Origin: an uncultured Gammaproteobacteria bacterium
GTDB lineage: Bacteria; Pseudomonadota; Gammaproteobacteria; JAADHQ01
DNA: 58,453 bases
Reading direction: 5' to 3'
Assembly: GCA_947258755.1 (NCBI GenBank)
Contig: CAMYJO010000016.1
Location: 1-58,453 of the forward strand
Part shown: piece by piece, positions 35,597 to 38,850 of the stretch
Layout: every line of letters begins with the position of its first letter
Numbering within the stretch: the stretch's first letter is position 1
Notes under the pieces: model-generated
Told to the model about the DNA's origin: nothing
Seen by the model: only the letters and a program-made list of their open reading frames with translations
The model's database searches: none
Program-made: the position numbers and the translations under genes

Positions 35597-36163
35597 CTAT
35601 AGCAGCGGTTTGATCTGTTTTTCGACGTCGGCAAAGCTGAGCTCGCCTTTGCCAACGAAGCGAATAGTACCCTGACGGTCAATAATCAGGCTATACGGAA
35701 GTTGGCCAAAACGATTCCCATAGGCCGCGCTGATGTTCATGGTCTTACTGTCACCAATCAGGATCGGGTAATTGGCGCCCAGACCATCGGCATAATCCTC
35801 AACCGCATCGCGCTCATCAATGGCAACACCTAGGACCTGGAAGCCTTGTGCGCCGTACTGTTCCTGTAATTCAATAAATGCCGGGATCTCACGGCGACAG
35901 GGTGGGCACCAGGTTGCCCAGAAATTTAACAGGATGACCTTGCCGTCCCATTCCTTGACGTGGCGTAACTTGTCTTCCAGGTCAGGTAGGCTGAATGCGG
36001 CGCGTTGTTGGTTAATGACCGAGTTAGCCTGGATAGGCTTTGCCTGCGCACCGCCTTGTTGCTTGGCGGCCACTTTATCCGGTGTTTGCGTACTCTGATA
36101 CAAGGCCCATCCGGCGAACATGCTGGCCAGTGCCAGCAGTACTACTATTATTCCATTCTTCAT
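35597..36163 (-). CDS. TlpA-like periplasmic thioredoxin
   Basis: 188 residues. An N-terminal anchor or signal (IIVVLLALASMFAGWALY) is followed by an AhpC/Redoxin-like thioredoxin fold with LLNFWATWCPPCRREIPA (C-P-P-C active site) and the cis-Pro loop GQLPYSLIID. It likely reduces periplasmic disulfides using electrons from DsbD, encoded 15 bases upstream, and could serve cytochrome c maturation. Confidence 0.9.
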   Translation of the reverse strand: MKNGIIVVLLALASMFAGWALYQSTQTPDKVAAKQQGGAQAKPIQANSVINQQRAAFSLPDLEDKLRHVKEWDGKVILLNFWATWCPPCRREIPAFIELQEQYGAQGFQVLGVAIDERDAVEDYADGLGANYPILIGDSKTMNISAAYGNRFGQLPYSLIIDRQGTIRFVGKGELSFADVEKQIKPLL

Positions 36164-36178
36164 CGACTATTTTCCTGA

Positions 36179-38530
36179 TTACTGGTTGAAGGATTGATTG
36201 ACGCGAGCGAGAAACGCGTCGGCCTTCATCAGCCCAAGGACACGTTGTTTGCGAATTTCTTTGCCGGCCGTGTTAAAGAACAAGATGGCCGGGGCGGTGA
36301 TGACATCAACGCGTTTCAGGACCTCTTTGTCCTGCTGGTCCTGCAGGGTGATATCGGCCTGTAATAAGACCGTATCCGACAGCGCCTGTTGTACCTTGGC
36401 ATCGGAAAAAACATAGTCATCGAATTGTTTGCAGTACGTGCACCAGTCGGCATAGAAGTCCAGCATCACGGTCTTGCCGGCCTGGTTGGCGGCCTGCAAC
36501 TCACGTTCGAAATCGGCCACAGTCTTGACCTTGATGAAAGTCAGGCCACCTTTGACGACGGATTTTTTACCCTGTGCAAAGGTCACATAGGCCGGTTTGG
36601 GGCCACTGCTACTGCTCAGCATGGCAGGCGCCTGGCCTGTGATCAGGCTTGAGCCATGCAGTGGGTCGTTGAAGTTGCGCGCACCGGTCAGGCCGCCGAG
36701 CAGGACGATAACGCCGTATACAAAGAGTACCAGACCCAGTCCCTTGAATAGTTTCATCCAGCCTGAACTGCCTTCCTTGATGGACTCGAAGGCGCCCATA
36801 TACGTGGCCGAGATAATAAACAGCATGGCCCACAGGGTCATGAAAACGACACTATTCAATACACGCTCGAGGAACACGATCGCTACCGCCAGCAGGATTA
36901 CACCGGCCACGGCCTTGACTGTATTCATCCAGGTACCTGCGCGTGGCAGTAATTGGCCACCGCCGGCGCCGACCACGAGTAGCGGCAGACCCATACCGAT
37001 GGCCAGTACGAACATGTACAGGAATCCCAAGGCCGCGCTGTTGGAAGCGGCGGCACCGGCGATGGTGGCCAGCAGGATCGGCCCACCGCAGGGGCCGATA
37101 ATCAAGGCCGATAATACACCCATGATGGACACGCCGATCAGCGAGCCTCCCTTCTGCCGATTGCTGATCTCGTTCAGGCGGCTCTGGATGGCGCTGGGCA
37201 TCTGGATGTTATAAAAACCAAACATCGACAGCGACAACAGTACAAACAGTGCTGCGAACAGGATTAATACCCACGGTTTTTGCATCTGCGCGGCAATATT
37301 ACTGGCTTCACCGGTAAAGCCGAAGATGGCGCCAATGACACCAAAGGTGACGGCCATGGCCAGTACATAGACCAGTGACAACATAAAGCCCTTCATCGCC
37401 GTGATCTTCTCGCCCTGGCCGACAATGATGCTGGATACAATCGGGATCATCGGGTACATGCACGCTGTGAATGCCAGTAACAGTCCAAAGCCGAGCAGGC
37501 TGGTAAGGACGGTCCATAGGCTCTCGCCTTTGAACAGGCGCACCAGTTTTTCATCATCACTAAGGGTATCAGTACTACTGGCGCTGGCACTTGCGGCGGC
37601 CGCGGCTGTTACGCTTGGCGCAGCCGCGCTAACACTGACACTGCTGTCACCAGCAGGATCATAATCGACTGTCTTGAAAATCGGTGGGTAGCATAGGCCG
37701 GCATCGGCACAGCCCTGGTAGACCAGTTCGACCTGTACCTTTTGCCCCTTGAGGTCGCCGATAACCGGGATCGGAGCCGTGACATCGTCATGGAATACCT
37801 TGATGTCGCCGAAGTATTCATCATGTTTGGTCTCGCCCTCAGGTAACACCACCTTGCCGAGTGATACACCTGCGGGTGCATTCTTCAGGTTGAATTTAAA
37901 TTTATCCCGATACATGTAATAGCCTTTGGCAATGCGCCAATTCGCCATCAGGGTCTGCGGCTCAGCGTTTTTTGTACTTAGGGCAAAGGCCTTGTCGGGT
38001 TCGAGGAACTCCTCTTCTTCAAGCCCCATATTATTACCAAGCTCGCTGATAGCCTGTAAGGGGTCGGCGACAGCGGCGGCAGGTTTTGCTGCGGCTGCGA
38101 TTAATTGGATCTGTGCACTTTGTTCAAATGGCGGATAGCATAGGCCCATGTCGGCGCAGCCCTGGGAGCGGCTGATCAAATTCATGCTACCGATGTCGGC
38201 CTGGCTGCGTGTGATTGGTATTTCAATCGTGATTTTGCCGCGCAGGGTTTCGACATCGCCGAAATAAGGATCTTTTTTGACCTTGCCGGCCGGAATGATT
38301 GGCGTTCCTAATTGGATACCGTCGGTATCGGTGCGGAAAGTGAATTTGTTGTGATACAGGTAGTAGGCATCGGCGATGGACCATTCAGTGATAAGCGTGT
38401 TGGCATCCTTGGCCTTGGCGGTCATCGGAAAGGCCTGTGCTGGGGGTAAGGGTTCTTCTTCGGCCAATAACAGGGCAGGGCTCAGTAATACCAGGGCCAG
38501 CAGTGATGCAAACAGCTTCTTCATTGTCAT
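36179..38530 (-). CDS. dsbD: Thiol:disulfide interchange protein DsbD with duplicated alpha domain
   Basis: 783 residues, well above the usual 560-620. After a signal peptide (residues 1-23) there are two DsbD-alpha domains: the first (about 25-145) with its redox Cys pair in QGCADMGLCYPP (Cys125, Cys131), the second (about 175-290) with QGCADAGLCYPP (Cys274, Cys280). An Ala/Ser linker (296-320) leads to the eight-helix beta domain with Cys357 (FTACMYPMIP) and Cys481 (IGPCGGPIL), then the gamma thioredoxin domain with WCTYCK (Cys697, Cys700). Moves electrons from thioredoxin to periplasmic proteins. ATG 38530 overlaps the cutA stop; ATG 38524 is the alternative. Confidence 0.93.
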   Translation of the reverse strand: MTMKKLFASLLALVLLSPALLLAEEEPLPPAQAFPMTAKAKDANTLITEWSIADAYYLYHNKFTFRTDTDGIQLGTPIIPAGKVKKDPYFGDVETLRGKITIEIPITRSQADIGSMNLISRSQGCADMGLCYPPFEQSAQIQLIAAAAKPAAAVADPLQAISELGNNMGLEEEEFLEPDKAFALSTKNAEPQTLMANWRIAKGYYMYRDKFKFNLKNAPAGVSLGKVVLPEGETKHDEYFGDIKVFHDDVTAPIPVIGDLKGQKVQVELVYQGCADAGLCYPPIFKTVDYDPAGDSSVSVSAAAPSVTAAAAASASASSTDTLSDDEKLVRLFKGESLWTVLTSLLGFGLLLAFTACMYPMIPIVSSIIVGQGEKITAMKGFMLSLVYVLAMAVTFGVIGAIFGFTGEASNIAAQMQKPWVLILFAALFVLLSLSMFGFYNIQMPSAIQSRLNEISNRQKGGSLIGVSIMGVLSALIIGPCGGPILLATIAGAAASNSAALGFLYMFVLAIGMGLPLLVVGAGGGQLLPRAGTWMNTVKAVAGVILLAVAIVFLERVLNSVVFMTLWAMLFIISATYMGAFESIKEGSSGWMKLFKGLGLVLFVYGVIVLLGGLTGARNFNDPLHGSSLITGQAPAMLSSSSGPKPAYVTFAQGKKSVVKGGLTFIKVKTVADFERELQAANQAGKTVMLDFYADWCTYCKQFDDYVFSDAKVQQALSDTVLLQADITLQDQQDKEVLKRVDVITAPAILFFNTAGKEIRKQRVLGLMKADAFLARVNQSFNQ

Positions 38531-38850
38531 TTTCCTGTACAGTGGTCGATCCAGTCTAGATAGGTAGTCAGTCCATTTTCTATTGGGACTGATATTATCT
38601 CTGGAAGTTCATAGGGATGTAGTGATGCAATCCTTGATTCAAGTTGTGTATAACATTCGCTGCGCGTCTTGATCATCAGCAGTACTTCGGTGCCAGTTTC
38701 CCGCTTACCCTGCCATTTATATATTGAGGTCAAACCCGGTACAATATTGACACAGGCAGCCAGCCCTTCATCAATCAGTGCATTGGCCAATGCGACGGCT
38801 TGCTCATGATCCGGGCATGTATTGAGGATAATCTGGTATTCTGGACGCAC
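38527..38850 (-). CDS. cutA: Divalent-cation tolerance protein CutA
   Basis: 107 residues. Trimeric CutA1 fold: LIDEGLAACVNIVPGLTSIYKWQGKRE and HPYELPEIISVPIENGLTTYLDWI (named by their ends). Historically linked to copper tolerance; molecular role unresolved. Upstream of dsbD with a 4-base overlap and divergent from fxsA, a conserved gammaproteobacterial arrangement. Confidence 0.95.
   Translation of the reverse strand: MRPEYQIILNTCPDHEQAVALANALIDEGLAACVNIVPGLTSIYKWQGKRETGTEVLLMIKTRSECYTQLESRIASLHPYELPEIISVPIENGLTTYLDWIDHCTGK

Follow-up and report, generated by a model that had tools for sequence, protein, structure and literature searches.

A DsbD protein with two alpha domains

The locus considered here raises the question of why an electron hub of the DsbD type should carry two N-terminal alpha domains. 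It lies in a window of 58,453 nucleotides from an uncultured gammaproteobacterium, by which we mean the whole stretch of DNA that was analysed. An earlier note on this sequence had described two cysteine-bearing N-terminal domains ahead of beta and gamma in a protein of 783 residues. Pfam matches, cysteine positions and alignment all agree with that description, and the domain search and structure prediction that it proposed return two alphas, both matching the nDsbD fold. The gene order is fxsA, cutA, dsbD, a TlpA-like gene and aroQ, beyond which lie open reading frames that we take to be accB and accC. The features are as follows (the dsbD coordinates are exact).

38527..38850, minus strand: cutA, directly upstream, with a 4-nt overlap with the dsbD start
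36179..38530, minus strand: dsbD, 783 aa, with a signal-like N-terminus, alpha1, alpha2, beta (TM) and gamma
38120..38458, minus strand: alpha1 (DsbD_N), residues 25-137, 91.3 bits, Cys125/Cys131 in QGCADMGLCYPP (123-134)
within alpha1: cap loop, D87-P88-Y89-F90-G91
37673..38014, minus strand: alpha2 (DsbD_N), residues 173-286, 117.2 bits, Cys274/Cys280 in QGCADAGLCYPP (272-283)
within alpha2: cap loop, D237-E238-Y239-F240-G241
36857..37519, minus strand: beta (DsbD_TM), residues 338-558, Cys357 and Cys481
36182..36547, minus strand: gamma, thioredoxin-like, residues 662-783, WCTYC (Cys697/Cys700), structural match to 2fwe at Z 22.1
35597..36163, minus strand: TlpA/ResA-like thioredoxin, a candidate client, 188 aa, WCPPC, 15 nt downstream of dsbD

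Both alpha scores come from a search of the organism's own genome, in which the cut-off was 25 bits. Pfam likewise places DsbD_N twice in the protein (overall E 1e-59), followed by DsbD_TM at 338-558 and Thioredoxin_7 at 672-753. The eight cysteines listed above are the only ones in the protein and make four pairs. The two alphas are identical at 46 of 116 positions (40%), and the BLASTP E of 1e-29 places this likeness beyond chance. An AlphaFold model built on 52 sequences (mean pLDDT 81.9, pTM 0.57) gives both alphas mostly more than 90 pLDDT, with low confidence in the stretches between domains (150-159, 162-172 and 296-320), and solved nDsbD structures match each of them (6dps_A to residues 174-302, Z 17.4; 1z5y_D to 24-147, Z 15.8). 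With two nDsbD-type alphas that each hold a Cys pair, a DsbD_TM domain with two cysteines, a gamma domain with CxxC and an NCBIfam NF001419 (DsbD) score of 666.9 bits, where the cut-off is 330, the window protein is a genuine DsbD variant with two alpha domains.

The E. coli K-12 protein, our control, also scores above the NF001419 cut-off, has the beta and gamma domains and is encoded directly downstream of cutA. In contrast to the window protein it has one alpha (one DsbD_N stretch), and no tlpA adjoins its gene. A passage of PMC5403849 describes ScsB, CcdA and DsbD as membrane proteins of similar but non-identical structure that maintain thiol oxidoreductases in the reduced state; the window protein is set apart from ScsB and CcdA by its score above the DsbD subfamily cut-off, and its neighbours, for comparison with ScsB, are cutA, the TlpA-like gene and aroQ.

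DsbD_TM has one match in the organism's genome, which rules out a second DsbD sharing the work and makes the window protein the sole DsbD-type hub found there, with many possible clients. The same genome has one DsbC_N match, 18 matches to TIGR00385 (one above the CcmG cut-off and 17 weaker) and 23 Redoxin matches that overlap with these; the adjacent TlpA/ResA-like protein does not reach the curated cut-off of any of the named NCBIfam models. No other genome among the 56 of the class sample described below has as many TIGR00385 matches as the window's own, which also has 19 cytochrome c (PF13442) matches.

Distribution of the double-alpha form

We counted alpha domains in the nearest distinct homologous loci, drawn from genome contigs, and found two in 64 of 79 and one in the other 15, three of which (L042, L043 and L048) have a contig end at their start and could be truncated doubles. 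These three also enter the trees and neighbour counts below and are absent from the analysis of client number. Record titles of the doubles include Gammaproteobacteria MAGs, Thiobacillus, Hydrogenophilales, Sedimenticola, Chromatiaceae and Granulosicoccaceae. In a class-wide sample of 56 genomes, among them the window's own, a single frame holds two linked DsbD_N matches in 21 (18 of 53 families), and over all 115 classifiable genomes of the class a double-alpha DsbD is present in 48. The double form is therefore no oddity of the window genome but common in its class, which is what the earlier note had named as a refutation of its view, and its premise that DsbD normally has one alpha holds for E. 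coli but not for this class.

In one genome of the class (G087) phmmer found, among cutA, tlpA, aroQ and accB, a single alpha domain only (L218:2105-2767, minus strand), and neither beta nor gamma was found within that stretch.

Conservation of the two heads

Both cysteines are kept in 81 of 81 alpha1 and 81 of 81 alpha2 domains of double-alpha DsbDs, as are the Gln and Gly of QGC and the second Pro of CYPP. A decayed alpha1 is ruled out by its cysteine pair. The same conservation, in each copy, makes it highly improbable that one alpha is a structural spacer devoid of redox function, an idea for which we found no supporting point.

The cap loop, which in E. coli nDsbD is thought to guard the thiols against non-cognate exchange (in passages of PMC7347389), is conserved in both heads as well, with the Asp equivalent to E. 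coli D68 present in 81 of 81 alpha1 and 79 of 81 alpha2 domains. At the position of E. coli E69 the window protein has Pro88 in alpha1 and Glu238 in alpha2; this split is not systematic, with Glu in 42 of 81 alpha1 and 34 of 81 alpha2 domains. The residue before QGC is Ser in 59 of 81 alpha1 domains, Tyr or Trp in 65 of 81 alpha2 domains and Tyr in 29 of 36 singles, the singles including the three contig-end loci that may be cut doubles.

Age of the duplication

The earlier note had asked whether phylogeny would reveal a recent duplication; the alpha tree points instead to a mainly old one. The tree spans 133 alpha domains; one side holds 50 of 52 alpha1 domains with five alpha2 (L094, L052, L019, L025 and L038) and three singles, and the other holds 47 of 52 alpha2 and 26 of 29 singles with two alpha1 (L086 and L088). 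None of 500 shuffles gave a grouping value as low. This was a quick tree, in which the dividing branch has a weak support of 59 and 67 of 130 inner branches are open, and given this support and the misplaced rows a single origin of the duplication is likely rather than proven. The alpha2 domains of L019, L052, L025 and L038 sit among alpha1 domains as if later copied from alpha1. The window's alpha1 and alpha2 each cluster with their counterparts in the nearest relatives, and a recent duplication in the window genome is excluded by the 40% identity between the copies against 75% to the nearest counterpart of each in the thinned tree.

On a tree of the beta-gamma part of 81 proteins, also quick and carrying a long-branch warning, the double or single state needs 13 changes, seven of them forced by starred branches, or 10 with four forced when the three cut rows are left out. 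Both trees are unrooted and no roots were inferred, so that gain and loss of an alpha look alike on them. Since alpha1 and alpha2 share 40% identity and most alpha1 domains stand apart from alpha2 and singles, the history that fits best is a duplication of mainly old date followed by losses, and gains may also have occurred.

These trees bear on two readings of the second head. In a serial relay, electrons would run from gamma to alpha2 to alpha1 and on to clients, the second domain extending the reach of the hub. The order alpha1-alpha2-beta, which puts more sequence between alpha1 and the membrane, is compatible with such a relay, as are the low-confidence linkers, and alpha2 clusters with single alphas, as expected had it kept the contact with gamma. 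We know of no precedent, however, for exchange between alphas. Both alphas carry the cap loop thought to shield thiols in E. coli (passages of PMC7347389), and we consider the relay improbable. The other reading, a sub-case of parallel heads, holds that two equivalent heads raise throughput and do not divide the clients. The likeness of Cys motif and cap loop in the two alphas speaks for it, and the best beta-gamma tree calls for 10 or more switches of state, the pattern expected of a part that can be dispensed with, but type-specific residues recur in distant families, and we regard full equivalence of the heads as rather doubtful.

Double alpha and the number of client-like proteins

What is new here is an association between the double alpha and the number of CcmG/TlpA-like proteins, taken as TIGR00385 matches per genome with E up to 0.001. 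The traits counted on the class sample were three families, TIGR00385, PF00691 and PF13442. The idea arose from this first sample, in which 18 double-alpha genomes have a median of 9.5 client-like proteins and 31 single-alpha genomes a median of 4 (p 2e-6). The comparison leaves out of the 56 genomes G001-G003, which belong to the window's genus, and G021, G023, G042 and G052, which have no alpha; a strict set, also without G011, G017, G028, G034 and G041 (cut, unlinked or distant alpha), comprises 18 and 26 genomes.

For replication in other genomes the DsbD genes were fetched and their domains counted. Among the 89 new genomes, 71 could be used, and 18 were dropped for having no DsbD, a fragmentary one or a distant one (G056, G061, G063, G071, G075, which looks single, G087, G088, G089, G092, G094, G097, G101, G105, G107, G109, G113, G132 and G136). 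Here 30 doubles and 41 singles differ in the same direction, with medians of 10 and 5 (p 4e-7), where at most the best 22 candidates were scored per genome and counts for the richest genomes mean at least that number. The difference holds with log genome size in the model (p 3e-7) and within the range 2.0-4.2 Mb (25 against 29 genomes, rank test p 1e-5), and in all 115 genomes with size it reaches p 4e-10. Exceptions occur in both directions, for example a double with three matches (G043) and a single with 14 (G139).

Allowing for kinship makes the association smaller. Phylogenetic regression (PGLS) on the beta-gamma tree, which is a tree of the DsbD gene itself rather than of the species, gives p 3e-4 and an about 1.3-fold difference in 102 genomes, 11 long tips of 113 being omitted; G033 and G051, single by the DsbD_N matches of the class sample, are among the 115 genomes and outside the tree. 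Keeping tips up to length 3 gives p 1e-4 (109 genomes), and restriction to genomes at least 95% complete gives p 6e-4 (81 genomes). The replication set alone gives p 4e-6 in 65 genomes with a fitted lambda of 0, at which the tree plays no part, so that this value carries no more weight than an ordinary regression would. The four independent pairs on starred branches favour neither side, scoring 0.5 in the same direction against 0.6 in the opposite one. The association, roughly twofold between doubles and singles, is firm in these data, and it is correlational.

The OmpA-domain control (PF00691) shows no excess with double alpha, neither in the 115 genomes with size (p 0.58) nor by PGLS (p 0.10 with a negative sign, 0.07 at lambda 1). 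Cytochrome c (PF13442) counts, on the other hand, do rise with double alpha (p 2e-7 with size, PGLS p 7e-4). It is conceivable, though less likely than not, that a lifestyle rich in cytochrome c drives both counts and that the second alpha itself has no bearing on client number, a view compatible with two active heads. The client-like term nevertheless survives with cytochrome as a covariate, at p 7e-5 in plain regression on 115 genomes and, weakened, at p 0.014 in PGLS.

The adjacent gene, whose product the earlier note had proposed as a partner, gives a less uniform picture. Next to dsbD, on its downstream side, lies a TlpA-like gene in 40 of 69 doubles and 18 of 35 singles (Fisher p 0.54); once near-copies are removed the counts become 35 of 44 doubles and 13 of 29 singles (p 0.005). 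On the tree the relation has p 0.10 (66 rows), and a pair test over seven pairs (1.7 same, 0.3 opposite) is not significant. No adjacent tlpA was found in this search for any of the 13 doubles titled Thiobacillus or Hydrogenophilales, and a neighbouring TlpA is thus not required for a double alpha.

The suggestion in the earlier note that a second alpha lets DsbD serve extra partners finds correlational support, also visible on the gene tree. According to passages of PMC7347389 the one alpha of E. coli DsbD already serves CcmG, DsbC and DsbG, so that serving two partners does not call for a second head.

A proposed mechanism and its implications

By analogy with E. coli, electrons from cytoplasmic thioredoxin would pass to the membrane domain (Cys357/Cys481) and then to gamma (Cys697/Cys700), which would reduce either of two periplasmic alphas, both equipped with a Cys pair and a cap loop and joined by linkers predicted to be flexible. 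Each alpha would hand electrons to periplasmic thioredoxin-fold clients such as CcmG, DsbC and TlpA-like proteins. We infer that gamma reduces both heads, that these would act in parallel and that the second would be kept for the additional output it allows, and we hypothesize some division of clients between them. To one hub with two parallel output heads, kept for capacity and perhaps for split clients, we assign a probability of about 0.6; it fits best because the cysteines and cap loops are conserved and because E. coli DsbD offers the analogy. A bolder version, in which the old duplication split the client sets of a widespread second form of the hub and gain or loss of an alpha follows the size of the TlpA/CcmG-like repertoire, seems to us unlikely. 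If the link to client number were causal, it would describe a redox hub that scales with its clientele.

Among the matches listed from open-licence PMC, no title or abstract opening concerns a two-alpha DsbD. The 'additional N-terminal domain' mentioned in PMC8945050 belongs to Trx2 rather than DsbD, and the question of how one alpha can deal with several clients that are unrelated to each other has been studied on single-alpha DsbD, for example from E. coli and Neisseria (in passages of PMC7347389). The common natural double-alpha form is a ready test for this question, offering two heads on one engine that can be mutated separately. Three genomes carry both a double- and a single-alpha DsbD gene (G057, L138/L137; G076, L155/L154; G122, L191/L192) and provide a natural comparison. 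A further genome with a double-alpha DsbD (G054) also encodes a stand-alone DsbD alpha of 156 aa (L217:2075-2545, plus strand) whose start resembles a lipobox (LSAC) and whose Cys pair is intact; it may be a lipoprotein that acts as a redox shuttle.
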